Positions 19,820 to 62,492 of a stretch of 64,000 bases of DNA are shown in pieces. The DNA comes from Leptolyngbyaceae cyanobacterium C42_A2020_001 (GTDB taxonomy: Bacteria; Cyanobacteriota; Cyanobacteriia; Leptolyngbyales; Leptolyngbyaceae), in the NCBI GenBank assembly GCA_015272515.1, contig JACYLN010000111.1:62001-126000 (forward strand). The letters run 5' to 3'. Both the position numbers and the translations under genes were made by a program. A model generated the notes under the pieces. That model was not told where the DNA came from and ran no database searches. It saw nothing but the letters and a program-made list of their open reading frames with translations. Numbering within the stretch: the stretch's first letter is position 1; each line of letters starts with the position of its first letter.

Positions 19820-22800
19820 ATGCCAAATTTGCTGAAACGGCTTCCAACCCAGGGAATTTTAGTTAGCTTGTTTCTTCTATTTACAGTGCCATTTGGGGTT
19901 GTGGTTAACCGCTTAGTTGCTGAGATTGATGCCAGTATCGAGTTTGCAGCAAAAGAGCAAAAAGGGTTGGAGTATAACCAGGGGCTACGTCAGTTTTTGG
20001 CTGAACTGATGCAGCAGCAACAGCTTAGTCAGGAATATTTAAATGGACGTACCGAGTTAGCAACGCCTTTACAAAATCAGCAAGCTGCCGTTAATCGCGC
20101 AATTCGAGCTGTAGACCAGATTGATTCTCGGCTAGGCGCTGTGTTGCAAGTCAGCGATCGCTGGAAACAAATCAAAGTCAACTGGCAGCAAATTGCACTG
20201 AATCAGCGGGTGCAGTCGGCTGAAACCAACCGCGAATTGCATATCAGTTTGATGAGTGACATTTTGATGCTAATCGCCCAAGTGGGAGATACCTCGAATC
20301 TGATTCTCGACCCAGATTTGGACTCTTACTACCTGATGGATGGAGTAGTTGTTCAACTGCCAAAGATGCTGAAGCACTCGGCGCAGGTTCGGAATGTGGG
20401 ACAGGCTTTTGTAAGCGTGAATAGAAGGTTGACGCGAGAGCAAGAAATCCAACTCATTGGGTTGTACAACGCAATTAAACTACCGTTGACGAACTTGCAG
20501 CGTGGCATGGACGTGGCAACAAACGATAATCCCTCGCTTGCTCCCATCCTTGAACCTCCCGTTTTAGAATCAACGATTGCTACGAATGCCTTGCTGGAAT
20601 TGACTCAGAGAGCGAGTTCCACAGCAGCTCAAATTTTCGATAGGGAGTTTTATCAAGTCGGTAACGAGGCGATCGCCAAACAGCTTCAACTTTATGACGC
20701 GATCGCTCCGACTCTGCATCAACTACTGCAACACCGCATTCAAAAATTTGAAAATCGCAAGCAGCAAGTTCAAGTCTTTAGTCTGCTCGTGTTTCTGGTG
20801 CTCGTAGCCACGTTGATTGGGTTTTCTCGGAACTTTGGGCAACGTCGTCGCGCCGAGCAGCAGCTTAGTTTGCAATATGCAGTTGGTCGCCTACTGGCAG
20901 AAACCACCCAGTCTGAAGCAGCAATCCGCGAGATTCTGAAATTGCTGGGTCAGGGGTTGGGGTGGCATTGGGGAGAATTTTGGGCCCCGGATCCAACTAT
21001 CAGAGCGATCGCTCTGGTAAGCCATTGGGAGGCTTCCCCGCATCATTTGGAAGCATTTGTTGCGGCAACTAAACGCCTGACCTTTCAACCCGGAAAAGGC
21101 TTGATTGGAAAATGTTGGAGCCAGCGCAAAACCCTGTGGATACCGAATCTGTCACAGGATACGGATTTTTTACGGACTCAATCCGCTATTCAGTCAGGGT
21201 TACGAAGCGCGATCTCGCTCCCCATTCATTGCAACGGCGAAATGCTGGGAGTGATGGCATTCTTCAACCGTCAGCTTCAAAGTCCTGATCCAGACCTGAT
21301 GAGAATGTTAAACACCATCGGGGGGCAGATTGGACAATTCATCCAGCGTCAACAGGCAGAATCGAGGCTCCGGGAGCAAGAAGGACTACTGCGAATGGCG
21401 CTTGAATCGGCTCGCATGGGAGCCTGGGATTGGGATATCCTCACAGGTGAGGAGAACTGGTCAAAAGAAGTTGCCGCAATCTTTGGCGTGGATGCAGAAT
21501 CCGAGCAGTCTACCCAAAAATATGAGGACTTTCTAAAACGAGTCCACCCGGAAGACAAAGAATGTTTGCGGCAAGCAGAAGCTGACACTCTGGAGCGAGG
21601 TAAAGAGTACAACGTTGAATATCGGATTGTGCGAGAAGATGGCACCCTTCGCTGGGTAAACAGTCGCGGCAATGTGCTGCGGGATGCTAGCGATCGCCCC
21701 AGGCTGCTAACTGGCATCACCATGGATATCACTGCCCGCAAGCAAACCGAAGCCGCGCTTCAAGAAGCAGAAGAAAAATACCGCAGCATCTTTGAAAACG
21801 CTGCCGATGGCATTTTTCAAACCACACCCGATGGAGAATATATCAGCGCGAATCCGGCTCTGGCAGAAATTTATGGCTATGATTCACCCGCCGCCTTGAT
21901 GATGGCACTGTCTAACCAGATTGAGCAGCGTTTGTATGTCGATCCGCATCGACGTGTGGAATTCATGCAACTCATCAGCCAATACGACACGGTGATTGAT
22001 TTTGAGTCGCAAGTTTATCGTCAGGATGGCAGCATCATTTGGATTTCCGAAAATGCTCGCGCCGTGAGAGATGAAGCCGGGAATTTACTGCATTACGAAG
22101 GCACTGTTAAAGATATCAGCGATCGCAAACACGCCGCCGATGAACTTTTCAAAGCGAAGGAAACGGCTGAAGCAGCCAACCGCGCCAAAAGCCAATTCCT
22201 CGCCAATATGAGCCATGAACTGCGAACTCCACTCAACGCCATCATCGGCTACAGCGAAATGCTGCAAGACGATGCCAGAGACTTTGGCTATGAAGACCTC
22301 ACCCCCGACCTGGAAAAAATTCGTAGTGCTGGTAAACATCTCCTCGGCTTAATCAACGACATCCTCGACATCTCCAAAATCGAGGCAGGCAAGATGGAAC
22401 TGTACCTGGAAACCTTCGACATCAACCAACTGGTTAAAGAAGTCCAGGCTACGGTTCAACCCTTGATTGCCCAAAACGAGAACACCTTCATCGTGCACTG
22501 CTCTCCAGACATTGGCAATCTGCACGCTGACCTGACCAAAGTTCGGCAAGCCCTGCTCAATCTTCTCAGCAACGCCAGCAAGTTTACGCAAAACGGCACG
22601 ATTACGTTGACGGTGGACAAGCAGGAGATAGGAGATGAGGCAGGTGGGGGAGACATTCAAAATTCAAAATTTGGTTCGGGCTGCGGTGACATTAGTCGAA
22701 CCGCTGACTCACCGGAAGCCAAAATTCCCTTCGGTTCGACTCAGGGAGAACAAAATTCTCCAACTCCTCCCTCGTCAATCTCTAATCTTCAATCTCCGGT

Positions 22801-24308: not shown

Positions 24309-27300
24309 ACATGGAAAAATCAACAATAGACATTTTATGGGTCATTGCCAGCGCCAGTCTGGTTTTTTTAATGCAGGCTGGATTCCTCTGTCTAGAATCG
24401 GGTTTAACCCGCAACAAAAATAACATCAACGTTGCCATCAAAAATCTGACTGATTTTGGTGTTTCAACATTGCTATTTTGGGCGATCGGCTTTGGGCTGA
24501 TGTTTGGCGCTTCTGCTCACGGCTGGTTAGGCATCACCCATTTTCTACCCGATTTCAGCCAAAACCAATCCAGCGTCTGGATCATCACGTTTTTCCTGTT
24601 CCAGGTAATGTTTTGCGGCACCTCCGTCACGATTGTTTCTGGGGCAGTAGCAGAACGAATGCGATTCAGCAGTTACTTACTGATCTCTGCCATCATTTCT
24701 GGCGTAATTTATCCCGTGTTTGGGCACTGGGCATGGGCAGGCACCGAAGCAGGAAAACTTGTCGGCTGGCTAGGAAAACAGGGTTTTGTAGATTTTGCTG
24801 GCTCAACGGTGGTTCACAGTGTAGGCGGATGGGTATCGTTGGCTACTCTTGTGATCATTGGGCCCCGCATGGGGCGATTTCGTAAACAACACATTCAGGG
24901 AATCCCTGGCTCCAACTATCCCCTAGCCATGTTGGGAACGCTGTTGCTGTGGTTTGGCTGGTTCGGCTTTAATGGCGGCAGCACCCTGGCAATCAACGCC
25001 CAGGTGCCTTCAGTGTTGGTGAATACAACCCTGGCAGGCGCGAGTGGGTTGCTGATGGCTGTTTTAGTAAGTTGGGTATTGCAGCAGCGAGCCGATGTCG
25101 ATTGGCTAATGTATGGAACGCTGGCAGGGCTAGTTTCAATTACGGCGAATTGCCACGTTGTTTCAACTGCTGCCGCGATCGCAATTGGGGCGATTGGAGC
25201 GGTGCTAACCATCTTTTCAACCTTTCTACTGATACGTTTGCGGATTGATGATGCGGTGGGTGCTATTCCCGTGCACTTAGTGGCAGGAGTTTGGGGAACG
25301 TTAGCAGTGGCGCTTTTTGGAAAGCCAGAGTTGTTAGGCACTGGCTTAGACTTCACCGCCCAACTACGAGTTCAAGTATGGGGAATTGTCTCCTGTGGGG
25401 TTTGGACCTTTGGCGTGTCTTATTTGGTGTTTAAGCAAATCGACTGCTGGTTTCCATTGCGAGTCACGGTAAAGCACGAAGCGATTGGGCTAAACGTTTC
25501 TGAGCATGGGGCAACCAACGACTTGCTTGACCTGTTTCAAGTCATGGATAAGCAATCCAAAACGGGAGACTTAAGCTTACGAGCACCCGTAGAACCCTTT
25601 ACCGAAGTTGGGCAAATCGCTGATCGCTACAATCATGCGATCGCCGCGTTAGAAACTGTTGTTACCAGAACAAATGCGATCGTCAAAACTGCCCGTGATG
25701 GCATCATCACTTTTTTGCAAGACGGGCGTATTGACAGCCTTAATCCCAGTGCAGAAACCATTTTTGGTTACTCCGCCCCTGACCTTCAGGGACAACTCAT
25801 CACTACGCTATTAGATCACCCTGCAAGCAGTCAGCCCACTCCAGGCACAGACATCGTCTCCCAATCCCTGCTCAACCTGATCAAACCTGATACCTACTGC
25901 GAAGTCATCGGTCGCCGTGCCGATGGGTCTACCTTTCCATTAGAAGTCATGGTGACAAAATCCACAGCCGGAGAAACCACCTTCTACACAGGCACCTTTC
26001 GAGACATCACCACCCGCAAACTCGAAGCCCAAGAACTACAAATCGCCAAAGACAAAGCAGAACAGGCAAATCACACCAAAAGCCAGTTTCTTGCCAACAT
26101 GAGTCACGAACTGCGAACTCCACTCAACGCCATCATCGGCTACAGCGAAATGCTTCAGGAAGATGCCGAAGACTCTGGGCAGGAACACTTCGTCCCAGAC
26201 TTGCAAAAGATTCATGGGGCAGGCAAACACTTATTAGGACTAATTAACGACGTGCTAGACCTCTCCAAAATTGAGGCAGGCAAGATGGAGCTTTATCTGG
26301 AAACGTTCAACGTCTCCAGTATGGTGCAAGATGTCGTCAATACTATCCAACCGCTGGTTCACAAACATCACAATTCGCTTGTCGTCAATTGTCCCAGCGA
26401 CATCGGTACGATGCACTCTGACCTGACCAAACTCCGGCAAAATTTGTTTAATCTTCTTAGCAACGCCAGCAAGTTTACTCAGAATGGGACGATTACGTTG
26501 ACGGTAGAGCGGCAGGAGACAGGAGATGAAGCAGGTAGGGGAGAAATTCAAAATTCAAAGTTCAAAATTCAAAATTCAGAAGTTGGTTCGGACTTCGGCA
26601 AGATCAGTCGAACCGCTGACTCACCGGAAGCCAAAATTCAACATTCTCTAACTTCTCAATCTTCAATCTCCCATCCCCCCTCCCCGCTCCCCTATTCCTC
26701 CATCACTTTCACCGTCTCCGATACGGGCATTGGGATGACCGCAGAGCAGTTGGGCAGGTTATTTCAACCCTTTGTGCAGGCGGACACTTCCACAACTCGA
26801 AAATACGGCGGAACAGGCTTGGGATTAACGATTACTCAACGGTTTTGCCAGATGATGGGTGGGGATATTTGGGTGCAGAGCGAGCCAGGGCGGGGTTCTA
26901 CGTTTGTGATGCGCTTACCAGAGAAGGTCCAGAAGGGAGAACCAATCAAGCCTGCTGCAATCGCCTCCGTCCGTCACACCAAACCTATCCCTCCCCATAC
27001 CAAAACCCTACTGGCGATCGACGATGACCCCACCATGCATGATTTGCTCCAGCGCTATTTGGGCAAAGAAGCATTTTGCATCATCAATGCTACCAGCGGT
27101 GAAGAAGGGCTACAGTTAGCGAGAGAACTCCGTCCTAGCATTATTACGTTAGATGTGATGATGCCCAGCATGGATGGCTGGGCAGTACTTTCCAGGCTGA
27201 AATCAGATCCAGAGCTGGCGAGTATCCCGGTTATCTTGCTAACGATGGTGGATGACAAAACTATGGGGTACACCCTGGGTGCGGCTGATTACCTAACAAA

Positions 27301-38012: not shown

Positions 38013-40118
38013 ATGCCACCTGCGAACTCTGTCCAGTCAGATCAGCAACCGTCGCACTCCAGGGTTAACCAGCATTCTTTAAACGCTTCCATTTCTTCCC
38101 GTTCTTCTACCGGACGGTTTTTAGTCTGTGGGCTGGGCAGTTTAGGGCAGTTTTGTGTATCGGTGTTGAAAGAGTTTAAGGTGCCCGTCAGTGCGATTAC
38201 GCTGACACGGCCATTAAGCTGGGAAATTCCGAATTTACCCGACCTGGTGGACGACCTGCTGATAGGGGATTGTCGTCAACCTGATTTGTTGGAGAAGGCA
38301 GGAATTCAGGACTGTCGAGCGGTGTTGCTGGTCGCCAGTGATGAACGGGCAAACATTGAGGCGGCGTTTGCGGTACGGTTGCTGAATCCCATAGCCCGAA
38401 TTATTGTGCGCTCGGCAAAAGAGAATTTGAATGAATTGGTGGGCGATCGCTTGGGGAATTTTGTCGCCTTTGAAGCCACCCAACTACCCGCCCCAGCTTT
38501 TGCGATCGCGGCACTTAGTAGCGAAATTCGGGGATTTATTACCCTAGATGACTACACCCTACGAGTCGTCAAAGCTTCCATCACGAAAGACCATCGCTGG
38601 TGCGATCGCCGCCTGTTGCACGAACTCAATACCCAAACACGGCGCATCCTCAGCCATATTCCCTACGGGTCGCCTTTACCAACCGAGTTTTATCAATGGA
38701 ATCCGGATGCCAAAGTACAAGCGGGCGATTTGATTGCGTATATTGAATTGACTGAAACCTTTTCGTCGCCAACAGTTCAAGCCAGTTCCACCCTTGCTTC
38801 CGCCAAAAAGGTTAAGGGTCGCCGTTCATTTGGGAATCGGATTCATCAAGTCGTTTCAACTCAATATTGGAAACAGCGGTTAGCAACATTCTGGCGATCG
38901 ACGGGGCAGCAGCAGTCCAAACGGGTTGCCGTTCTAGTTGGGACTGCCATCCTCACGTTGTTAATTCTGGGAACTGTGACCCTCAAGTTAGCTCAACCAG
39001 AAGCCAGTATTTTTCACACGTTTTATGTAGCAGGCGTAATGCTGCTCGGCTCTTACGATGTGGTGTATGCTGCGCTCAGTCCGCAAGATGCCATGCCACT
39101 GTGGATGCGGTTGATGAACCTGGGCTATATGCTGGCGGGAACAGCCTCGATCGCCGTTTTGTATGCACTCTTAACCGAAACCCTGCTTGCTGCCAAATTT
39201 CAGCTTCCGAAAAAACGTCCACCTGCGCCAGACGAGGATCACGTTGTTTTAGTGGGATTGGGGCGGGTAGGGCGACGGGTAGCCGCCTTTCTTCAACAGC
39301 TTAAACAACCCGTGGTAGGTGTGAGCAATGCGGCTCTAGAACCCACTGTGTTGCCGCAATTACCTGTGGTAGTTGGTGATCTGGCAGGTAGTTTGGCGCG
39401 GGTCAATTTAACGACTGCTAAGAGCGTTGTTGTCGCGACAGACGATGAAATGGCAAATTTAGAAATTGGGTTGATGGCGCATCGAGTCAATCCTAACTCT
39501 GCCCTGGTAATTCGCACCTTTGATCCGCGGTTTAGTGCCAGTGTGGCACGCTTGCTGCCCTATGCCAAAGTTCTTTGTGCCTACGATCTGGCGGCGGAAG
39601 CGTTTGTGGCCGCGGCATTTGGCGAAAATATTTTGAACCTGTTGCGGCTGAATGAACAAACGGTATTGACCACTGAGTATTTTGTGGAAGCCAACGATAC
39701 GCTCAACGGCCGGTTGCTGGGCGAAGTATCTTACGGTTACGGTGTGGTTCCCATTCTGCACGATCGCGCCGATAAACCCATGCGACTAATGCCCTCAGAC
39801 GATACGCGCCTGGAAGTTGGCGATCGCCTGGTGGTACTTGCCCCAATCGAAAGTTTGCAACGGGTAGAGCGGGGCGAACTTTTGCCCAAAACCTACCGAG
39901 TCCAGATTGAACGCGCCCTATCCAGCGATTCCGTGTTTGATGGAGCCAATGCGATCGCCCGGGTGTCTGATTGCGGCATCCAGTTTGCCCGCGACGTGAT
40001 GAATCAGCTTCCGGCTCAATTCCCCCACCCCCTCTACCAGCATCAAGCCCAGCGCCTAGTGCGAGAACTGGCAAAAGCGCAAGTGTCTGCTTGTCTGGTT
40101 GTTTCTGGTAGTGAGTAG
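38013..40118 (+). CDS. TrkA-N/potassium-channel-like membrane protein with degenerate filter
   Basis: A 701-residue protein with two nucleotide-binding TrkA-N-like domains around a small membrane region. The first (residues about 35-165) starts FLVCGLGSLGQFCVSVLKEF; the second (about 405-530) starts HVVLVGLGRVGRRVAAFLQQ; TrkA-C-like segments follow each. Between them are about three hydrophobic helices (LVGTAILTLLILGTVTL, then FYVAGVMLLGSYDVVYAAL, then TASIAVLYALLTETLL). The middle one sits where a potassium channel has a TVGYGD-type filter but here reads LLGSYDVV, so a potassium pore is doubtful. It precedes the PstS-like gene by 24 bp and heads a seven-gene run. Redox or ion sensing is only an inference. 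Confidence 0.8.
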   Translation: MPPANSVQSDQQPSHSRVNQHSLNASISSRSSTGRFLVCGLGSLGQFCVSVLKEFKVPVSAITLTRPLSWEIPNLPDLVDDLLIGDCRQPDLLEKAGIQDCRAVLLVASDERANIEAAFAVRLLNPIARIIVRSAKENLNELVGDRLGNFVAFEATQLPAPAFAIAALSSEIRGFITLDDYTLRVVKASITKDHRWCDRRLLHELNTQTRRILSHIPYGSPLPTEFYQWNPDAKVQAGDLIAYIELTETFSSPTVQASSTLASAKKVKGRRSFGNRIHQVVSTQYWKQRLATFWRSTGQQQSKRVAVLVGTAILTLLILGTVTLKLAQPEASIFHTFYVAGVMLLGSYDVVYAALSPQDAMPLWMRLMNLGYMLAGTASIAVLYALLTETLLAAKFQLPKKRPPAPDEDHVVLVGLGRVGRRVAAFLQQLKQPVVGVSNAALEPTVLPQLPVVVGDLAGSLARVNLTTAKSVVVATDDEMANLEIGLMAHRVNPNSALVIRTFDPRFSASVARLLPYAKVLCAYDLAAEAFVAAAFGENILNLLRLNEQTVLTTEYFVEANDTLNGRLLGEVSYGYGVVPILHDRADKPMRLMPSDDTRLEVGDRLVVLAPIESLQRVERGELLPKTYRVQIERALSSDSVFDGANAIARVSDCGIQFARDVMNQLPAQFPHPLYQHQAQRLVRELAKAQVSACLVVSGSE

Positions 40119-40142
40119 AAATTTTAAGGCTATCGATCTCCC

Positions 40143-41045
40143 ATGCTTAAACCGAAACCGCCTTCTCCGATTCCATACATCGCCCTAGCCCTGGTACTTT
40201 TGGCAAGTGGCTACTGGTGGTTCAATCGCCAATCCCGTTCAGCCAATTCTGTTTCGTCTACGCAAACATTGGGCAAATCAAAAGCATCATCAGCCAGTGC
40301 TTTTCCGCTGCCGCGATCCGTTCCAGCGGGAACTGTGGTAGACATTGATGGCTCAACCAGCATGGTGACCATTAATCAAAACTTAAAACGAACATTTGAG
40401 CAACAGTTTCCTGGTACAGAAGTGATCACAGAAGCGAATGGCTCGAATCAAGGCATTCAAACCTTGCAGGCGGGCATGATTGATGTGGCAGCGTTGTCTC
40501 GTCCGTTAACGATGCAAGAAACAGCGCAAGGGTTAGAAGCAGTGGAAATTACCAACGACGCGATCGCGATCGTGGTCGGCAATACCAACCCCTTCAAAGG
40601 CAGCCTCACCCCCAAACAATTGCAAGGAATTTTTCAGGGTACCCTTGTCAACTGGTCGCAGGTGGGCGGTCCCAACAAAATGATCCGCGTGATCAATCGT
40701 CCGCCAGTTAGCGGCACCCATCAAACTTTCAAAGAATTGGTCTTAAACGGCGGCAACTTTGGCACCACACTCAACATCACTACACTGCCACAAGACGCAA
40801 CTACACCATTGTTACGAGCATTGGGTACAGATGGCATTGGCTACGCGACCAATACTCAAGTACTGAAGCAGAAGACGGTGCGGAGTGTGCCTATTGGGGG
40901 ACTGCAACCAAATCAGCCCAACTATCCCTATCGCCGCACCTTGTTCTATGCCTATCAAACCCCAGCCAGTAAAGTAACTCAGGCATTTTTAGGCTTTGCT
41001 CTCTCGGCACAAGGCAAACAGGCAATTTTAAGGGAGGCACCATGA
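40143..41045 (+). CDS. PstS-like phosphate-type substrate-binding protein
   Basis: A 300-residue exported protein with an N-terminal membrane anchor (residues about 11-26) and a type 2 periplasmic binding fold of the phosphate family: DIDGSTSMVTINQNLKRTFE (SxxxT phosphate-loop region), EANGSNQGIQTLQAGMIDVA, SRPLTMQE, and RPPVSGTHQTF. It lacks ABC transporter genes next to it, so it may be a sensor or an anchored receptor. It is the second gene of a compact operon; its stop overlaps the next start by four bases (ATGA). Confidence 0.9.
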   Translation: MLKPKPPSPIPYIALALVLLASGYWWFNRQSRSANSVSSTQTLGKSKASSASAFPLPRSVPAGTVVDIDGSTSMVTINQNLKRTFEQQFPGTEVITEANGSNQGIQTLQAGMIDVAALSRPLTMQETAQGLEAVEITNDAIAIVVGNTNPFKGSLTPKQLQGIFQGTLVNWSQVGGPNKMIRVINRPPVSGTHQTFKELVLNGGNFGTTLNITTLPQDATTPLLRALGTDGIGYATNTQVLKQKTVRSVPIGGLQPNQPNYPYRRTLFYAYQTPASKVTQAFLGFALSAQGKQAILREAP

Positions 41046-41659
41046 ACAATCGACTAACCCAGGAGCAGTTACGCAAAATTGTGGCGGAAGTGGGCGAACT
41101 CGATCTGCGCCGTCAGCAAGAACTGGAAGCCAACCAGGTAAGAGAGATTTTGATGGAATTGGATCTGCCGCCAGAGTTGTTGGAAGATGCAATGGTTCAG
41201 CTTCGGCGGCGAGAAGCTCTCGCAGTGCAGGAGCGGCGACAACGCTGGATTGCAGGCAGTGCGCTTGCCTGTTTAATCATTGCGATCGCGGGAACGGGAT
41301 TCTGGATGTGGCAGGGGCAGCAATCCCTGAATCGAGTTGCCGCTCAACAAGACCGAATTACGTTGGTTCAAGACGATGGGGGGAATTTGGAGGCTGTGAC
41401 CCGTCCTGCTGAAGTGGTTTATCGCGTCACGCTACGGGATGCACCCGTAGACAAAACCCTATCTTTGCGCTGCGATTGGCTTGATCCCGGTGGGCAGGTT
41501 GTAAAGCAAGTGCAATACGAAACCCGCACGATTACCACAGCCGTTTGGGATACTCGCTGTCGTTACATCATCGGCGCTGAAGCCGTTCCGGGTAATTGGA
41601 TGGTGAAGCTGTGGATGGGCAATCGCCTGTTGAGTGATGCCACACTTGAGGTGAAGTAA
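41042..41659 (+). CDS. single-pass membrane protein of unknown function
   Basis: A protein of 205 residues: an N-terminal charged helical region (LTQEQLRKIVAEVGELDLRR, then REILMELDLPPELLEDAMVQ), one membrane helix (about residues 73-92), and a beta-rich outer domain of about 100 residues (VVYRVTLRDAPVDKTLSLRC, then RCRYIIGAEAVPGNWMVKLW). The two cysteines may form a disulfide. Its start overlaps the stop of the PstS-like gene and it is followed after two bases by the AsnB-like gene. No family name can be given with confidence. Confidence 0.8.
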   Translation: MNNRLTQEQLRKIVAEVGELDLRRQQELEANQVREILMELDLPPELLEDAMVQLRRREALAVQERRQRWIAGSALACLIIAIAGTGFWMWQGQQSLNRVAAQQDRITLVQDDGGNLEAVTRPAEVVYRVTLRDAPVDKTLSLRCDWLDPGGQVVKQVQYETRTITTAVWDTRCRYIIGAEAVPGNWMVKLWMGNRLLSDATLEVK

Positions 41660-41661
41660 CC

Positions 41662-43395
41662 ATGTCGTTTCCCCCCTCCACCACTGTCCTGAAATCCCAT
41701 CACGTTTTGGGCTACTGGGGCTATGGCGATCGCGCAAATCTGCAAGCGCAACTGGCAGGGACAGCGGCAATGTTGGGCACAGGAAACCCCTTGCAGAGAC
41801 AAACGTCCCCGGATGAGGTCAATTTATCCCAATCAAGTTGGAGTGTGGTATGGATTGAAAACGCTGGGGGTGCCGAGATTGAACTGACAGCGGATCGCCT
41901 GATACTGGGGCGGGAAGCCTTTGGGCGATCGCCGCTGTACTGGCTGCAACAGGGGCAGGTGATCTGGTTTGCCTCGCGATTGCAATGGTTGCTGCCCTTG
42001 AGCGATCGCGCCATCCATCTACCAGCAGTGTATGGCTACGCCTGTTTTTCCTATGTACCCACCCCCCTCACACCGATTGCTAACATCTTCAACTTGGCGG
42101 CTGGCACAGAGCAAACGTGGAACCTGTTACCAGACGGCACACTCTCTCAACCCCGCCAGACTCAAGGGCAGGAGTGGCAGGAATCGCTGGAACAACTGAA
42201 GGATGAAGAAGCGGCGATCGCGCAACTGCAAACCCTACTTCAAAATGCCGTCCACACCCAAACCGCCGACCTAGCCGATCAACCTGTGGGCGTGTTCTTG
42301 TCTGGCGGGTTAGATTCTTCCATTGTGGCAGCATTGTTGGTACAGGCGGGGCTAAAGGTGCAAGCCTACACCCTCAACTTTGGAGATCCCGATCTGTCTG
42401 AGCACTGGTATGCCGAACAGGTGGCTCACTTTCTCAACATTCCGCTGCACGTTGTAGATGTAACTCCCAAACGGATTCGGGCTGCCCTATTGCCTACGGC
42501 TCAAGCCCTGGATTTGCCCTTTGGCGATGGAGTGACCGTGCCCCTGTTTTTGTTGGCACAAGCTGCCAGCCAGGAAGTGAGCGTCGTGTTTAATGGGGAG
42601 GGCGGCGACCAATTGTTTGCTGGCTGGACGAACAAACCGCTGATTGCCGCAGGCGTTTACCAAACTGAGCAACCCCAGGCAGAATCTTTCACCCAGCAAT
42701 ATCTCCGCACTTTCCATCGACTCTGGGGCTACGAAGAGCAGGTATTTCAACCCGAGATCTACGCTCAGGTGCAGACGTTTGACCCGCAACAATGGCTAGC
42801 AACCGCCCTCGATTCGGAAAGTTGCCCATCCTTGCTGCATCGCCTGCGGCGCGCCACGCTGATGCTCAAAGGTGCTCAAAATATCCATCCTCGCGCTACC
42901 AACATTGGGTTGGCCCATGGGCTAGACGTGCGATCGCCCTTTTGTGATCTGGCTCTGGCGCAAGCAGCGTTTCGCATTTCCAGTCAACTGCATCTGCAAG
43001 GCTCCTGCGAAAAGTACATCTTGAAGCGGGCAGTGGCAGATTGGCTTCCCTCCGAGATTGTGTGGCGAACCAAACGCGGCATGGGCGTTCCCCTCACCCG
43101 TTGGTGTTTAGATAGCCTCTGGCATGACCTGGGCAAGTGGCTTAGTCCCACCCGTCTGCGGCAAGAAGGGATCTGGCAACCCGCGATCGCCTGCCAAATC
43201 ATATCGGGTCAGCTCGGCACCATTCAGGGGCGACGCATGGGGGAATGCCTGTGGCTGCTACTGATGTGGCAAGCTTGGCGTGAGGTTCATCATAATTGCT
43301 CCAGCTCGGTTTACTCCTTTGACCATCCGTTTTGGCTACCATCCTGGCTCGGACGTTCCTACCTGCGTTTACGTAAAGGCATCAAGCAATGGTAG
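41662..43395 (+). CDS. asparagine-synthetase-like ATP-dependent ligase without glutaminase cysteine
   Basis: A 577-residue protein with the two-domain layout of AsnB. The synthetase domain is clear: PP-loop VFLSGGLDSSIVAALL, then NGEGGDQLFAGW and RGMGVPLTRWCLD. The N-terminal domain keeps the NTN-like strands (RLILGREAFGRSPLYWLQQG) but the protein begins MSFPPSTTVLK, with no Cys at position 2, so glutamine hydrolysis is unlikely. It would need free ammonia or another amine, or make a lactam or amide on a special substrate. It sits in the seven-gene operon and overlaps the next gene by seven bases. The substrate is unknown. Confidence 0.88.
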   Translation: MSFPPSTTVLKSHHVLGYWGYGDRANLQAQLAGTAAMLGTGNPLQRQTSPDEVNLSQSSWSVVWIENAGGAEIELTADRLILGREAFGRSPLYWLQQGQVIWFASRLQWLLPLSDRAIHLPAVYGYACFSYVPTPLTPIANIFNLAAGTEQTWNLLPDGTLSQPRQTQGQEWQESLEQLKDEEAAIAQLQTLLQNAVHTQTADLADQPVGVFLSGGLDSSIVAALLVQAGLKVQAYTLNFGDPDLSEHWYAEQVAHFLNIPLHVVDVTPKRIRAALLPTAQALDLPFGDGVTVPLFLLAQAASQEVSVVFNGEGGDQLFAGWTNKPLIAAGVYQTEQPQAESFTQQYLRTFHRLWGYEEQVFQPEIYAQVQTFDPQQWLATALDSESCPSLLHRLRRATLMLKGAQNIHPRATNIGLAHGLDVRSPFCDLALAQAAFRISSQLHLQGSCEKYILKRAVADWLPSEIVWRTKRGMGVPLTRWCLDSLWHDLGKWLSPTRLRQEGIWQPAIACQIISGQLGTIQGRRMGECLWLLLMWQAWREVHHNCSSSVYSFDHPFWLPSWLGRSYLRLRKGIKQW

Positions 43396-45029
43396 ATATG
43401 CTCAATTCAATTTCCAGTTCCCCTGGTGCATCGCTCATTCTCAGCCCCGAACTGGCAACGGAACTCCTTCAGCTTTACGGGTCTCCGCTGTACGTGTACG
43501 ACGGCGATCGCTTACGCCAAACCATCGATCACATTACCCAGGCATTTCCCTATGCCAACACTCACTTTCATTTTGCCAGCGTCACCAACGGCAACCTTTC
43601 CCTGCTAAAAATCATTCGCGATCGCGGTTGGGGCATCCACGCCAACACCCCTGGCGACATTTACCTGGCACTCCAGGCAGGCTTCCATCCCAGCCAAATT
43701 GTGTACAGCGGCAGCAACCTCAACCGCGACGAAATGCACCAAGTCCTCGATTGGGGCGTAACAACCCTGAATTTGGACAGTTTGGCGCAATTGCAGTTGT
43801 TCTGCGAAGTGTGGCAGGAGGAAGCAGGTGGAGGTGATGAGCGAGGTAAGGAGTGGATGAGTGGGCGTGAAAGTCTGTTTACCCATACCCATCCACCCAT
43901 TCACGCTTCTACCTCCCCTTCCCCATCTTCTCCCCCTTCCCCATTCTCCCCCACCCCCTTTCCCCGCATCGGTCTTCGCCTCAACCACCCCCCACTCACA
44001 GGCGATAGCCGCATTGGCGTGCGCCCACAGGAGTTTGCATCGGCGATCGCTCTAGCACACCAGGCAGAACTCCCAATCAGCGGGTTGCACTTCTATCGAG
44101 GCACTGGAACAAACGCGACAAAAGCATTTACGCAAGTGATTAATGAGGTAATCGCGATCGCGCAGCAACTCCCCGATTGGCGCTATCTCGACTTTGGTGG
44201 CGGGTTTGGTTATCCCTATCATCACGACAGAGTAGCGTTTGACTGGAACGAATTTGGAGTCGCTCTCAGTCACCGCATTAACGAGTTGCCGCAACCCATT
44301 GATCTGATAATTGAACCGGGACGGGCGGCGATCGCAGGCTGTGCCGTATTGCTGTGTCAGGTAGTTTCCGTGAAATGGCAAGACGAGAAACAAATCATCG
44401 GCACCGATACAACCGTCGCCAATCTCTCCGTTCCAGCCGTACATGGGAGCTATCGGGAGATTGTAGTGGTTAAGAGGCAGAAAAATTTGAGATTGTCGAT
44501 TGGAGATTCTGGATTGGAGAAGTTAGAAGTTGGGAGTCAGGAGTCAGAAGATGAGAGAGACCTTCAAAATTCCCTTCGGTTCGACTCAGGGAGAACAAAA
44601 TCCAACATTCAAACTTCAAAATTCGGTTCGGTGTTCGGCGAACTCACACGAGCCGCTGACTCACCGAAAGCCAAAATTCAAACTTCCCCCACTCCCCCAC
44701 TCCCCCACTCCTCCACTCCCCCACTCCCCCACTCCCCCACTCCTCCACTCCCCCACTCCCTCCTCTTCCCCACCGATGTTTGCGGCAACACTACCTATTC
44801 CCGCGATTATCTGGGACGCAACTGCCAACTTCCAGCATTGCAACCAGGAGATGTGCTGGCCGTGCTAGATGTGGGGGCTTATGGCTATGCGATGTCGTCC
44901 CATTTTTTGCACCGTCCCCGCCCGGCGGAGGTCTTGCTAGAGGGAAATACCCATCGGTTGATTCGGCAGCGAGAAGATTACAGCGTGTTGTTGGCAAACC
45001 AGGTTTTTACAGGAGGTGAGGGTGCATGA
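43389..45029 (+). CDS. PLP-decarboxylase-fold protein lacking the PLP lysine, with two repeat insertions
   Basis: Homologue of diaminopimelate/ornithine decarboxylases (fold type III), 546 residues. Family parts: YGSPLYVYDGDRL, YLDFGGGFGYPY, IEPGRAAIAGCAVLL, DVCGNTTYSRDYLG with the dimer-interface Cys, and LAVLDVGAYGYAMSSHF. The segment that should read YAVKAN is FASVTN, so the Schiff-base Lys is replaced by Val65. Two extra pieces, residues about 144-191 and 360-460, are repeat-derived; without them the length is about 400, normal for the family. The start overlaps the AsnB-like gene. It may be a non-catalytic paralogue or a protein using PLP differently. Confidence 0.85.
   Translation: MVDMLNSISSSPGASLILSPELATELLQLYGSPLYVYDGDRLRQTIDHITQAFPYANTHFHFASVTNGNLSLLKIIRDRGWGIHANTPGDIYLALQAGFHPSQIVYSGSNLNRDEMHQVLDWGVTTLNLDSLAQLQLFCEVWQEEAGGGDERGKEWMSGRESLFTHTHPPIHASTSPSPSSPPSPFSPTPFPRIGLRLNHPPLTGDSRIGVRPQEFASAIALAHQAELPISGLHFYRGTGTNATKAFTQVINEVIAIAQQLPDWRYLDFGGGFGYPYHHDRVAFDWNEFGVALSHRINELPQPIDLIIEPGRAAIAGCAVLLCQVVSVKWQDEKQIIGTDTTVANLSVPAVHGSYREIVVVKRQKNLRLSIGDSGLEKLEVGSQESEDERDLQNSLRFDSGRTKSNIQTSKFGSVFGELTRAADSPKAKIQTSPTPPLPHSSTPPLPHSPTPPLPHSLLFPTDVCGNTTYSRDYLGRNCQLPALQPGDVLAVLDVGAYGYAMSSHFLHRPRPAEVLLEGNTHRLIRQREDYSVLLANQVFTGGEGA
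43818..43970. repeat. purine/pyrimidine palindrome inserted in the decarboxylase homologue
   Basis: A purine arm (GGAGGAAGCAGGTGGAGGTG and so on) is followed by a pyrimidine arm (CCCATCCACCCATTCACGCT and so on). It is translated in frame into a Gly/Glu stretch then a Ser/Pro stretch of about 48 residues. Confidence 0.7.
44466..44770. repeat. in-frame coding repeat, copy C (inside the decarboxylase homologue)
   Basis: A GA-rich lead, CAAAATTC-type repeats and the core GTTCGGCGAACTCACACGAG with CCGCTGACTCACCGAAAGCC are followed by a tandem run of CCCCCACTC units (about 44690-44760). It is read as [17 protein letters not shown] then a Ser/Thr/Pro tract, adding about 100 residues. Confidence 0.8.
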
Positions 45030-46276
45030 GATGTATTCGCTGCGGCACCGATAATTCGCGTCGCGATCGCCTTTCGCATCAGGGGCGGTGCAAACACTGC
45101 CACCATCTCTTTGCCTTCGACCCTCAGACCATGATGTCACCCCGCTTCACGGATCGGTATTTTCAGAGCTTAATCAACAAGCTCTCGGCAAGTAACACGC
45201 TCTATTTCACGAAACGTCAATTTCTGTACTGCTTTCAGCAACGCTACTATGGTCGTCCTCGATTTCCATATTTTCGTCCGGGCTTAAGTCGGACGTTGCC
45301 ACCTATGGAGATATCAGGAAAGGTTGGCGTTAGTTTGCTCATCATTGGTGTGCTGTTGGCATTTCTAGCTTTCAATCGTCTCATTTCTCCCCTGTTTGGG
45401 GTGGGTGCGTTCTTAGTGTTTCCGGGCTTGTTCCTGATGAGGCAAGATTTGAGTCAGCGCAGACGGCTTCAGGCTGAACGCCAGCGCGTGGCAAACCGGG
45501 AATGGGAGGAGCAACAGCGGCGACAAAAGCCACCAGCAGCCTCATTGCAAGTTTCAGAGGGTCAGATTGAGGGATGGTTGCGGCGCTGGCAGGAGGTGAA
45601 TGGCGCAATTGAGAAATTACTAGCACCACCCAAAGGAATTGCGGAACCTGTTGCGGTTGAGCCGGATGTGACCCAATACAGTTTTGATCGGCTGGTGATT
45701 TGCGATCGCGATAGTATTGCCCAGTTGTTAATTGCCAACAATTTTCACTTTGAGCGGAATTGTGCCATTGTCAGCATCAATGGCTATCCACCCCGAATTT
45801 TTGACACCGTGATGGACATGGTGCGGCGCAATCCAGCGTTGAAGGTGTATGTGTTGCATGATTGCACCGCTACCGGAATTGCCTGTGTGGAGCAAATTAG
45901 AACTGAGCCAAATTGGTTTCAAAATAGCCCAGTCTCAATTGTGGATGTAGGGTTAGTACCTGCTCAGGTGAGCCAAAGTCAGGCATATTTCTATCTATCA
46001 GTCGCAGCTCGCCAGGAGGTAACTCCTTATTTAGATGCGATTCGTTCGCGCCTAACGGAAGCAGAATTGGATGATATTGTATCGGGTCGCTATGTAGAGT
46101 TGGAAGCATTTACACCACGACAGTTAATTCAGATTTTGAATCGAGCAATTCAAGCAAGTGAAAGAGGAGATTCCAACTTAGCAGAATCTAACTTACCTAA
46201 TTTAGTGGTTTTAGAGGAGCGCGATCGCTTCCGCATAACAGACAGAACATTTTTGGAAATTGAAAGTTTTGGTTAA
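45026..46276 (+). CDS. zinc-ribbon membrane protein with TOPRIM-like C-terminal region (paralogue 1)
   Basis: A 416-residue protein. The N-terminus is a zinc ribbon, MRCIRCGTDNS then CKHCHHLF (CxxC...CxxC). Residues about 90-140 hold two membrane helices, then comes a charged coiled-coil-like segment (RRRLQAERQRVANREWEEQQ). The C-terminal half (SFDRLVICDRDSIAQLLIAN, then VYVLHDCTATGIACVEQIRT) has the strand-DxD-like layout of a TOPRIM or small hydrolase domain; this is an inference. The ATG start has AGGAGG upstream and overlaps the previous stop (ATGA). The next gene is its paralogue. No known family name. Confidence 0.82.
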   Translation: MRCIRCGTDNSRRDRLSHQGRCKHCHHLFAFDPQTMMSPRFTDRYFQSLINKLSASNTLYFTKRQFLYCFQQRYYGRPRFPYFRPGLSRTLPPMEISGKVGVSLLIIGVLLAFLAFNRLISPLFGVGAFLVFPGLFLMRQDLSQRRRLQAERQRVANREWEEQQRRQKPPAASLQVSEGQIEGWLRRWQEVNGAIEKLLAPPKGIAEPVAVEPDVTQYSFDRLVICDRDSIAQLLIANNFHFERNCAIVSINGYPPRIFDTVMDMVRRNPALKVYVLHDCTATGIACVEQIRTEPNWFQNSPVSIVDVGLVPAQVSQSQAYFYLSVAARQEVTPYLDAIRSRLTEAELDDIVSGRYVELEAFTPRQLIQILNRAIQASERGDSNLAESNLPNLVVLEERDRFRITDRTFLEIESFG

Positions 46277-46292
46277 TCCAACCTGAAAGTGT

Positions 46293-47612
46293 ATGAAATG
46301 TATTCAATGCCAGACTGATAACACCTTAAAAGACCGGACAGATAATCACGGTCGTTGCAAGCAATGTCAGCATCCGTTTGTGTTTGAGCCAACCAGCATG
46401 GGCGCAACCAAAGTGACGGATATGATGTTCGCAAAAGCGATCGCCGATCTATCTGCGAACGACACCTTATTTTTCACACCCAAACAGCTTTTTTATCTCT
46501 TCAATAAGCATCTACAAGGGCGGGGAATGCTGCAACCAATCGGTCTTTTAATATTGAGTGGATTTGCGACCGTATTTGCCCTCGTGACGATTGTTCTACC
46601 TGGTTTAGAAAAAGGATATTGGGGATTTCTGCTGATTCCAATTGTGATCAATGGACTGTGTTTATGGGAGCTTTGGCATCGTAGTCAATCTCAAAGAGTG
46701 TCTAGCCAAGAACGAGGATATGCATCTCGGTGTTTGCAAGTGCATGGATGGGCAATCCTGGTGTTTGGGATGATTTTTGGACTGAATTTGAACCTGTTTC
46801 CTTTCTTTGCTGGGAGCGTAGTGGTTGGGTTGGCGGCTGTCTACTGGGGTAGACGGGGATGGATCAATCGAGCGGCAATCTCTTCTGTGGCATTGCTGGA
46901 ATGGGCGAAGTTTCAGGAATGGCTAACTTCCTGGCAGACAGTAAACCCGATAACCAAGATACTTGAGCCTCCAAAGGAAACGCAGGTTGCTTTGAATGTT
47001 AATCCGGATGTAACAGCCTATAGCTTTGATCGGTTGGTGGTAACTGATAGTGCCGCGATCGCCCAACTGCTGATTGCTAACAACTTTCACTTTGAAAACA
47101 ATTGCGCCATCCTCAGCGTTACTGGGTATCCCCAGGGAATTTTCTTGACTGCTATGGAAATGCTACGCCGCAACCCAGAGTTGAAAGTGTATGCCTTTCA
47201 TGATTGCAGCGGTAAAGGCATGGGTTTAGCGCATCACTTGCGAACCAGCCCCCAATGGTTTCAAAACAGTCCAGTTGAGATTGTGGATGTAGGCTTGTTG
47301 CCGCGCCAAATCCTCTCAATTCCCAGTGTGTTTGTGCAGCAATCAACAGAATTTGCGGGTGCCTCTAAACGACTGACCGATCTCGAACGGCGACAATTTA
47401 CCGCAGATGAACTGGCATGGCTGGATGAAGGCAATGCGGTGTTGCTGGAGTCGTTTACACCGCAGCGATTGATCCAGGCACTCAACCGAGGGATTGCTGC
47501 CAGTCGCGAGTTTCTGGAGAAAGACAGCAGTAGTGGCGGCAGCGACGGCAGCGACTCTATTTTCATCGGTGATGGTGGCAGTCCGCACTATTCGGTCGAA
47601 AGTTTTGGGTAA
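46293..47612 (+). CDS. zinc-ribbon membrane protein with TOPRIM-like C-terminal region (paralogue 2)
   Basis: A 439-residue paralogue of the preceding gene with the same order. It has a zinc ribbon (MKCIQCQTDNT, CKQCQHPF), a helical part (SANDTLFFTPKQLFYLFNKH), four hydrophobic helices instead of two, and a conserved C-terminal half (YSFDRLVVTDSAAIAQLLIA, VYAFHDCSGKGMGLAHHLRT). Both proteins end with ESFG. A Gly/Ser/Asp-rich stretch (SSGGSDGSDS) precedes the C-terminus. It follows paralogue 1 by 16 bp. They may form a membrane heterodimer that works with the ligase and decarboxylase homologues upstream, but nothing in the sequence proves it. Confidence 0.82.
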   Translation: MKCIQCQTDNTLKDRTDNHGRCKQCQHPFVFEPTSMGATKVTDMMFAKAIADLSANDTLFFTPKQLFYLFNKHLQGRGMLQPIGLLILSGFATVFALVTIVLPGLEKGYWGFLLIPIVINGLCLWELWHRSQSQRVSSQERGYASRCLQVHGWAILVFGMIFGLNLNLFPFFAGSVVVGLAAVYWGRRGWINRAAISSVALLEWAKFQEWLTSWQTVNPITKILEPPKETQVALNVNPDVTAYSFDRLVVTDSAAIAQLLIANNFHFENNCAILSVTGYPQGIFLTAMEMLRRNPELKVYAFHDCSGKGMGLAHHLRTSPQWFQNSPVEIVDVGLLPRQILSIPSVFVQQSTEFAGASKRLTDLERRQFTADELAWLDEGNAVLLESFTPQRLIQALNRGIAASREFLEKDSSSGGSDGSDSIFIGDGGSPHYSVESFG

Positions 47613-47762: not shown

Positions 47763-49013
47763 ATGGCTACAAGCACCTGGACACGTCGTCACATTCTGTC
47801 TTTGGCTGACTTTACCCCATCCGAATACAACACGGTTTTGCAAACAGCAGTCAGTTTTCAGGAAGTGCTCTCTCGACGAACAAAAAAGGTTCCCACCTTG
47901 CAAGGATTGGTGGTGACCAATCTGTTTTTTGAATCTTCAACTCGCACCCGCAGCAGCTTTGAATTGGCAGCAAAACGCCTGTCTGCGGATATTCTCAACT
48001 TTGCGCCGGGTACATCCTCTCTGACAAAAGGTGAGACAATTCTAGACACGGCAAAAACCTATCTGGCAATGGGCACCGATATGATGGTGATTCGCCATAA
48101 AGAAGCCGGAGTACCGCAGGCGATCGCTGCCGAAATGGATCGATTAGATGTGAAAGTTGGCGTACTCAACGCCGGCGATGGACAACATGAGCATCCCTCC
48201 CAAGCCTTGCTCGACCTGTTTACTATCTGCACCCTGCTCGATCCTGAACGTCCCCAATTGTCGTTACTTGAAGGCAAAAAAATCGCGATCGTTGGAGACG
48301 TGCTCCATTCTCGTGTTGCCCGTTCCAACATCTGGAGCCTCACCGCCAGCGGAGCGGAAGTTCATTTGGCAGGACCGCCCACGTTATTACCAAAGTGGTT
48401 TAGAGAGTTTGCGAAAGGGAAGGAGTTAGGAGTCAGGCTTCCCAGAGCGTCAGCCGACGGGAGTCAGGAGTCAGAAGATAGGGAGGGTAGGGGAGATGGG
48501 GAAGATTGGGGAGAAATTCAAAATTCAAAATTCGGTTCGGTGTTCGGCGAACTCACACGAGCCGCTGACTCACCGGAAGCCAAAATTCCCTTCGGCTCGA
48601 CTCAGGCTTCCCAGAGCGTCAGCCGACGGGGAGAACAAAATTCTCCAACCTCTCAATCCTCTATCCCCTATCCCCCTCTGGTCCGAAAGCTCTTCCTGCA
48701 TTGGCATTTGGAGCCTGCTTTGAAAGATGCGGATTATGTGATGACGCTGCGGTTGCAGAAGGAGCGGATGACGAGCCATTTGCTGCCGAGTTTACGGGAA
48801 TATCATCAACTGTTTGGAATTACGCGCGATCGCCTAAATCTATGTCAGCCTAATGTGAAAGTGCTGCATCCAGGTCCGGTGAATCGAGGCGTGGAGATTA
48901 GCTCCGATTTGATGGATGATCCGCAGTTCAGTTTGATCTCGCAGCAAGTGACGAGCGGTGTGGCAGTGCGGATGGCGTTGCTGTACTTGATGGGCGTGAG
49001 TCGCGGTTTGTGA
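47763..49013 (+). CDS. pyrB: aspartate carbamoyltransferase catalytic subunit with repeat insertion
   Basis: Makes carbamoyl aspartate in pyrimidine synthesis. Carbamoyl-phosphate site [20 protein letters not shown], the active-site loop [29 protein letters not shown], and [11 protein letters not shown] and [11 protein letters not shown] of the aspartate domain are all present. The 416 residues exceed the usual 335 or so by an insert at about 221-300, which is repeat copy D. The start at ATG 47763 ([17 protein letters not shown]) matches the family; an ATG at 47685 would add 26 residues. The insert lies in the aspartate domain before [16 protein letters not shown], so folding may still be possible, but it should be tested. 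Confidence 0.93.
48421..48672. repeat. in-frame coding repeat, copy D (inside pyrB)
   Basis: It contains a GA-rich lead, CAAAATTC-type units and the core GTTCGGCGAACTCACACGAG with CCGCTGACTCACCGGAAGCC. A CTTCCCAGAGCGTCAGCCGA sequence occurs twice (near 48439 and 48608), and a CT-rich tail ends it. It is read in frame as [20 protein letters not shown]. Confidence 0.8.
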
Positions 49014-60992: not shown

Positions 60993-62492
60993 GTGAACCC
61001 TGATTTGCCACTACTGGACTTGTTTAATCGCCTGCGAGAGGCAGGGGTGCCGCTTGGTATCGCCGATTATCAGGCAGTTTTGCGATCGCTCCAGGGGGGC
61101 TTTGGCGTTGGCGATCGAGAAGCCCTCGCACGGCTGTGTAAAACCGTGTGGGTGCGATCGCCCGATGAACAACGCCTGTTTGACTTTTACTTTGATCAAC
61201 TCTTTGGAGAACCGCCGCAAACTCTACCCGACGAATCATCCCTGCCCCCAGCCCACTCCGCGCCATCTCCCTCCAACCCCAAAGTTCGCCGCCTCACCCA
61301 GAGACTCGCCCTTGCCGTGATCTCAGGCTTTCTCTGGTTGGGTCTTTCCGAGGCAATGCTGCCACCTCAAAGCCCTTACAAACTCTCCACCCTGCTTTCC
61401 AGGCTCTTTCAGCCACCGCCAGTCCCTCCCTCCCCTTCCCCCTCACCAACCCTCTCACCCTCACCCTTCCCTTCCCCCTTCCCTTCTGCTTCCCCCTCCC
61501 CCAGCCCCACGCCCGCGCCTGAAATCAGCCCGCCCTCCGAACAATATCCCTGGCTCAGATACGTCATCGTTGCGATCGGCGTGATTCCACCCATCTGGGT
61601 TGTCATCTTGGCGCTTCAACTGAATGCAGCTTTGAAACAGCAGCGGCATGAACGCTCCCATCAACCGGATCGCCCACCCCAAGCCCCACCCGCCCCGCTC
61701 ACGCCCCAAATATTAGCCGATTTGCAAGATGAAATTCAGGCAGCGCAAGCAGTCCGAGAAACCATCAGTCACGATGAAGAACCTGTCAGCAGTCGCTTTC
61801 TGCTCTCGTCCGATTACCTGCCCGTAACCCAGCGACAAATGAAACAATGCTGGCGACACCTGCGGCGCATGGTGCGACAGGGCATCCCGACGGAACTGGA
61901 TGTGGATGCGACTGTCTACCAGATCGGACGACAGGGAGTGTTGTTGAGTCCGGTGCTGCTGCCGCGCCGCGTCAACCGAACCGAACTCCTGCTCCTGATC
62001 GATCAGGATGGCTCCATGGTGCCATTTCACTCGCTCTCGGTTCGCTTAGTCGAAACCGCGATTCGAGGGGGACGGTTGGGTGGTGCCGGGGTGTATTACT
62101 TGCACAATGCGCCCAGTGAGCACTTGTATCACGACCCACTGCATCAAGAAGCCGAAGCGATTCAAGACGTGCTGGGGCGGTTACATCCAGATCGTACCGT
62201 CGTTCTGATTTTCAGCGATGCTGGAGCGGCACGGGGCAGCTATAGTTCAGAACGGCTTGAATTGACCAACGAGTTTCTAGAACGCTTGCGGCAATCCGCC
62301 CGACGAATGGTTTGGCTGAACCCCATGCCCCGATCGCGATGGGACAACACCACAGCCGCCGCGATCGCTCAGCGCATTCCCATGTTTGAGGCAACTCGTG
62401 AAGGCTTAGATAACGCGATCGATACACTGCGAGGGCGATTGAGCCATCCCGCCATGAGCGGGCAAGCGTCCAGGGAGCAGATTCGCCCATGA
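60993..62492 (+). CDS. membrane-anchored vWA domain protein
   Basis: A 499-residue protein. N-terminal 90 residues ([20 protein letters not shown], then [20 protein letters not shown]) are the CoxE/vWA helical part, followed by a membrane helix (about 100-120), a Pro/Ser-rich linker ([20 protein letters not shown]), a second membrane helix ([20 protein letters not shown]) and a vWA domain with [16 protein letters not shown]. The two helices put the linker outside the membrane. The GTG start at 60993 is chosen; an upstream TTG is inside moxR. Its stop overlaps the next start by four bases (ATGA). The vWA-MoxR pair is typical of ternary conflict systems. Confidence 0.88.

Follow-up and report, generated by a model that had tools for sequence, protein, structure and literature searches.

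A conserved cyanobacterial gene module combining Cys-less AsnB-like ligases, a remodelled LysA fold and membrane proteins with an invariant Phe-Gly end

We analyzed a 64,000-nucleotide window (positions 62,001 to 126,000 of contig JACYLN010000111.1) from the 5.55 Mb genome of Leptolyngbyaceae cyanobacterium C42_A2020_001, in which seven genes lie tightly packed on one strand (Table 1). Among their products are a membrane protein (TM), an AsnB-like ligase (Asn1), a LysA-fold protein (Dec) and two zinc-ribbon membrane proteins of one family (ZnR, here ZrA and ZrB). Comparison across genomes indicates that TM, Asn1, Dec and ZnR, together with a second AsnB-like ligase encoded elsewhere (Asn2), are one ancient functional module. 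The open reading frames (ORFs) were called mechanically, and their spacing in order is +24, -4, +2, -7, -4 and +16 bp (positive values are gaps, negative values overlaps), which agrees with the original prediction of seven tightly packed open frames. The same prediction had taken all seven as a single unit, and this part does not hold.

Our comparison covered 83 loci, consisting of the orthologous loci of relatives and 80 named cyanobacterial loci (from Nostoc, Calothrix, Scytonema, Microcoleus, Okeania, Moorena, Crocosphaera and Leptolyngbya relatives), whose proteins we clustered into families. The recurrent families are Dec (83 loci), ZnR (80), Asn1 (73), TM (70) and Asn2 (48), while the TrkA-type protein is found in five loci and the PstS-like protein in three. 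Dec lies next to ZnR in 77 loci and next to Asn1 in 69; the complete order TM-Asn1-Dec-ZnR is present in 61, several of the misses being contig ends. The shared neighbourhood that had been anticipated does recur. TM travels with Asn1, and Asn2 often lies behind the four genes in convergent orientation. We rejected the seven-gene unit because the TrkA and PstS genes adjoin the core in few loci only, and because Asn2 belongs to the conserved set. Across the 83 loci, the core is TM-Asn1-Dec-ZnR, usually with Asn2, and the TrkA and PstS genes are local additions. In the source genome Asn2 is on another contig (C76), which is why the original prediction missed it; Asn1 and Asn2, both Cys-less, are the only Asn_synthase matches in that genome. 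A search of the genome contigs with ZrA alone gave no relatives; they were found with the Dec alignment as query. We found no account of this gene set in the open literature, which is weak evidence given that most subscription journals lie outside such a search.

The members also occur together when they are not neighbours. Among 194 genomes of the cyanobacterial phylum, Asn1 and Dec are present in the identical 21 genomes, unlinked cases included, a draw whose probability would be 1e-28 for independent genomes, which these are not. ZnR is present in those 21 genomes and two more, one of the two being a remnant, and Asn2 in 20 of the 21 and four others, one of the four being broken. In one complete genome Dec-ZnR is at 0.19 Mb, TM-Asn1 at 4.44 Mb and Asn2 at 3.49 Mb. 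The module is found in at least seven families and is missing from other members of the same families. It also reaches a different class of the same phylum, that of genome G081, which, judged by GC content, genome size and gene content, is probably Sericytochromatia: one genome has a Dec-Asn1-ZnR-Asn2 row, one has Dec-ZnR-Asn2, and three have ZnR-Asn2 only. In genomes of this class without Asn1, no better Asn1 was found elsewhere in the genome, and testing the LysA relatives of G060 and G245 did not reveal a Dec of the valine type described below. On this distribution the minimal pair is ZnR and Asn2, and the deepest partner of ZnR is Asn2. The module is older than the split of photosynthetic cyanobacteria from their non-photosynthetic sister class, or it has been passed between both.

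Judged by the ratio of nonsynonymous to synonymous substitution rates (dN/dS, NG86), all seven genes are under purifying selection, with values of 0.07-0.18 against a congener (locus L033); the flanking genes gave 0.06 (M16 peptidase) and 0.10 (pyrB). The original prediction had likewise held that the loss of active-site residues does not reflect decay. Broken or fragmentary copies do exist in three genomes (G057, G161 and G163), as would be expected if these were accidental neighbours or decaying genes, but selection, co-occurrence and the invariance of the substituted residues all oppose that explanation, and we regard its probability as close to nil. The conserved neighbourhood and the invariant valine of Dec refute it; we also looked for orthologues with intact lysine and cysteine and no shared neighbourhood, and the outcome favoured the original prediction.

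Dec was originally described as having valine at the position of the lysine that forms the Schiff base with pyridoxal 5'-phosphate (PLP), and an alignment of orthologues was suggested as a check. We found this valine (Val65) in 83/83 cyanobacterial Dec orthologues and in both deep non-photosynthetic relatives (in the motifs YAIVCN and YAVVCN). Compared to the true LysA of these genomes, Dec has Tyr for the ring-stacking His, Thr for the phosphate Ser, Thr-Tyr for the catalytic Cys-Glu (Thr-His in the deep relatives) and Val for the substrate Arg, but it keeps the motifs of the PLP phosphate cradle (GGGFG, EPGR and GAYG). Dec thus resembles LysA (TIGR01048; PDB 2p3e, 3n2b and 1knw) in fold, in the GGGFG phosphate loop and EPGR, and in the C-terminal AYG and RPRPAEV segments, but differs in the absent Schiff-base Lys and the replaced His, Cys, Glu and substrate Arg. 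Its score for the LysA family is 244 bits, below the cut-off of 297.9 (orthologues, 230-259 bits). In a tree Dec forms a single clade (support 100/99) separate from LysA, and a separate LysA above the curated cut-off is present in 11/11 genomes tested. Because the cradle is kept, the replacements are fixed, the clade is separate and a true LysA is found elsewhere, we conclude that the Dec pocket has been remodelled and has not decayed.

AsnB homologues amidate diaminopimelate (DAP) in some bacteria. Since Dec is a LysA relative, one could propose that the ligases amidate a DAP carboxyl in peptidoglycan and that Dec binds DAP. However, Dec has Val, His/Tyr, Thr and Tyr/His, respectively, where LysA contacts DAP through Arg, Tyr, Cys and Glu, and we consider this proposal very unlikely.

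A dispersed repeat with a core of about 75 bp is inserted in Dec (44529-44756) and in pyrB (48516-48588); the two are 97% identical and both are in frame. The repeat was also seen at 22653-22745 and 26556-26702, and contig C108 carries it close to LysA.

The ligase had been described as AsnB-like, without Cys2 and with its PP-loop kept, and these statements hold. The N-terminal Cys is absent; none of 76 Asn1 and 49 Asn2 proteins begins with the Met-Cys that would provide the glutaminase Cys2, and the deep Asn1 begins with MSGICG. The motifs of the synthetase domain of Asn1 are intact (SGGLDSS, NGEGGD, SPFCD and WRTKRGMGVP), and SGGLDSS, NGEGGD and the late lysine of R-x-K-x-GM are nearly invariant in both Asn1 and Asn2. 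The intact ATP-site motifs point to ATP chemistry in both putative ligases, and the ligase domain first described for Asn1 is supported. Both have the synthetase domain, PP-loop, GEGxD and late Lys in common with AsnB and the asparagine synthetase-like (AS-like) ligases (TIGR01536, TsrC, ScdTA, PesC, lasso cyclases and TIGR03108), but they differ in lacking Cys2, in a replaced carboxylate dyad (see below) and in occurring as two paralogous families together. Asn1 also scores below every family cut-off, including those for Asparagine synthetase B (TIGR01536; 190.3 bits, cut-off 267.1) and lasso peptide cyclase (NF033535; 54.4 bits, cut-off 525). The closest solved relative is the hydroxyamidotransferase 7ylz, with CarA also among the matches listed. 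In one locus (L143, G163:C191, 10106-11959) we noted a deletion that has joined Asn1 to the C-terminal half of Dec in a single 618-aa frame; this genome has no Asn2, so the case may be joint decay or a fusion.

ZrA and ZrB were recognized from the start as paralogous zinc-ribbon membrane proteins, and both have the ribbon CX2C-X15-CX2C, but a Toprim domain and the shared -ESFG ends had been missed. Matches to PF21180, the Toprim type of TopoVI-A, Spo11 and JetD, were found in 46/50 ZnR members, with E values up to 0.05. In an AlphaFold2 model of ZrB the pseudo-Toprim domain has a predicted local distance difference test score (pLDDT) of 87.7, and the ZnR model aligns to TopoVI-A over 167 residues (VIA-align Z 12.2, root mean square deviation 3.9 A), with Z of 12.2 and 12.0 to 9o0g and 1d3y, respectively, over about 168 residues. 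A profile search of solved structures with ZnR gave a chance match only, so the Toprim assignment rests on Pfam and the model. The fold search also matched 14-3-3 proteins and designed helical repeats to the membrane helices, and these we set aside as common helical arrangements. Unlike topoisomerase VI A, Spo11 and JetD, whose fold it shares, ZnR has lost the acid residues, and the domain is fused after a zinc ribbon and 2-4 membrane helices: Cys or Thr takes the place of the catalytic Glu, and Ser, Asn, Thr or Ala that of the second Asp of DxD, a position never occupied by Asp in the motif-matched members. The loss of classical residues reported at first is real, and it extends further than was described, to His, Cys, Glu, Arg and Tyr in Dec and to the Toprim Glu and DxD.

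The last ~25 residues of ZnR are disordered in the model and variable except for the end, [MI]Y(V)(V)[DEQ]SFG. An -FG end is present in 90/96 ZnR ORFs and in 5/1084 other ORFs, and the six ZnR without it are incomplete, being cut by contig ends, N runs or frameshifts. Deep ZnR proteins end in GGDFG, DDDFG, DSDFG and GGDSFG. One locus (L093:12629-12946) has, beside a full-length copy, a 106-aa paralogue that consists of the ribbon, the next helix region and the -ESFG tail, without the membrane and Toprim middle. Two or three tandem ZnR paralogues were seen in L044 (9291-13337), L129 and L132, every one ending in -SFG. The even number of predicted helices (two in ZrA, four in ZrB) would place ribbon and tail on the same side of the membrane, probably in the cytosol. 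LysW amino-group carrier proteins, which have a zinc ribbon, an acidic tail and a fixed C-terminus, served as a lead only; ZnR ends in [SNTCG]FG and not EDWGE and is membrane-anchored, and NCBIfam gave no LysW family match.

Our preferred reading, which we hold tentatively and with less than even confidence, is a membrane-anchored PP-loop ligase module in which the C-terminal tail of ZnR is either a substrate or a docking partner of the ligases. ZnR would be the scaffold that presents the tail, most directly to Asn2. The ligases would activate a carboxylate with ATP, possibly that of the terminal Gly of ZnR, and couple it with ammonia or an amine. Dec, without PLP chemistry but with its phosphate cradle, would be the subunit that binds or reads the product or a phosphate ligand. 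The tail is proposed as the target because its C-terminus is invariant, it is flexible, and a ligase is the most constant partner of ZnR. The narrower version, that the Cys-less ligases conjugate the Phe-Gly carboxylate with ammonia, an amine or some small molecule and that the PLP-free LysA fold reads or supplies the partner, we judge rather unlikely.

Several observations weigh against this reading. A Glu-Tyr carboxylate dyad is reported to be common to five AS-like enzymes, peptide C-terminus amidases included (PMC13060819); at the position mapped via the E. coli motif, Asn1 has Gln...Trp and Asn2 has Pro...Pro, so the two must handle their substrates differently from the known amidases. 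The co-occurrence counts come from one even sample and ignore phylogeny. Finally, the conserved C-terminus may be a docking peptide only, and docking without modification fits almost as well as modification of the tail. In a fuller form of this alternative, the tail serves only to bring the soluble enzymes to the membrane. The ligases would then produce a small metabolite, either an amide or a peptide, of which Dec binds an intermediate, and its organization or export would fall to the membrane proteins. Tail invariance is equally consistent with it, AS-like enzymes often make small molecules (7ylz and CarA are among the relatives), and solute-binding and ion-channel-like proteins lie beside the core in some lineages, but we found no recurring transporter, precursor or other biosynthetic gene beside the core in the 83 clustered loci, and the deepest form is ZnR and Asn2 only; we think it unlikely, although a serious contender. 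Since ancestral catalytic residues are lost in three components, the module could also be a pseudoenzyme sensing or regulatory complex without catalysis, in which PLP or another phosphate ligand is sensed by Dec and ATP by the Asn proteins. Yet both ligases hardly vary at the PP-loop, at GEGGD and at the late lysine, which points to ATP chemistry and makes such a complex improbable.

The preferred reading, with the tail as substrate or docking partner, has precedents in other systems. The AS-like enzymes TsrC, ScdTA and PesC adenylate peptide C-termini (PMC13060819). Cap9/Cap10 and QatBC target flexible N-terminal tails; QatB has been shown to need a glycine motif, and in Cap10 an enzyme fold has been remodelled for binding the product (PMC11996544, PMC13279940); Dec may be a reader by analogy to Cap10. 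The module shares with QueC-like Cap9/Cap10 of the type IV cyclic oligonucleotide-based antiphage signalling system (CBASS) and with QatBC a PP-loop ligase, a flexible terminal tail, a fixed glycine motif and a remodelled enzyme, but it uses a C-terminus and not an N-terminus, its ligases are AsnB-type and not QueC-type, and the sequence relation is limited to the PP-loop. A defence system against phages with a PP-loop ligase at its centre, as in Qat and type IV CBASS, would suit the patchy distribution and a PADLOC QueC match (E 2.7e-6). There was no other PADLOC match, no defence or mobile genes recur beside the core, and the gene order is long conserved, so we give this little credence. For a phage origin, which we rejected, PHROGs gave generic AsnB/QueC matches only. 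AsnB-like and LysA-like families also occur together in the XrtA/PEP-CTERM pair of amidotransferase and decarboxylase, but our proteins score far below those families (188.5 versus a cut-off of 816.9 for TIGR03108; 107.7 versus 478.5 for TIGR03099).

Table 1. Features of the locus, in positions of the window.
Feature	Position	Strand	Remark
TrkA-N/2TM/TrkA-N-TrkA-C protein, degenerate pore motif LLGSYD	38013..40118	+	accessory, outside conserved core
PstS/PBP_like_2 binding protein, N-terminal anchor	40143..41045	+	accessory, lineage-restricted
TM: helical N-terminus, one transmembrane (TM) helix, C-terminal immunoglobulin (Ig)-like beta sandwich	41042..41659	+	
Asn1: AsnB-like ligase without glutaminase Cys2	41662..43395	+	
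Asn1 PP-loop SGGLDSS	42301..42321	+	
Dec: LysA-fold protein, remodelled pocket	43389..45029	+	
Dec Val65 codon, PLP Schiff-base lysine position	43581..43583	+	
Dispersed repeat and low-complexity insertion in Dec, in frame	44529..44756	+	congener's Dec without insertion
ZrA: zinc ribbon, two TM helices, pseudo-Toprim domain, acidic tail, -ESFG end	45026..46276	+	
ZrA C-terminal ESFG	46262..46273	+	
ZrB: ZrA paralogue, four predicted TM helices, pseudo-Toprim domain, disordered tail, -ESFG end	46293..47612	+	
ZrB C-terminal ESFG	47598..47609	+	

The TrkA-N/TrkA-C, PBP_like_2, Asn_synthase and Orn/DAP decarboxylase domains all score above the Pfam cut-offs. The degenerate filter described for the TrkA-type protein was confirmed, its orthologues reading LLG(S/A)YD versus TVGYG. 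A second TrkA-type protein (L059:8671-10788, G000:C145), 52% identical and with the degenerate pore motif LLGGYS, is encoded beside nitrate-transport-like and molybdopterin oxidoreductase genes. The helix of TM is at about residues 69-94; its Ig-like domain matches many beta sandwiches, so we took no function from it. In 19 Nostoc loci (within L065-L091) a divergent 343-aa protein is encoded upstream of TM, possibly of the glyoxalase/vicinal oxygen chelate (VOC) fold as judged by eye.

Three folds, those of LysA, the AsnB glutaminase and Toprim, have lost their classical catalysis and are fixed in one module; annotating the Dec and Asn genes as LysA and asparagine synthase would be incorrect. 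Among the carriers of the module are Nostoc and Calothrix relatives, which makes genetic tests feasible in cyanobacteria. If the ligases do act on the invariant C-terminus, this would be a new protein-tagging chemistry, and it would help explain the repeated pairing of PP-loop ligases with metabolic enzymes that have been remodelled.

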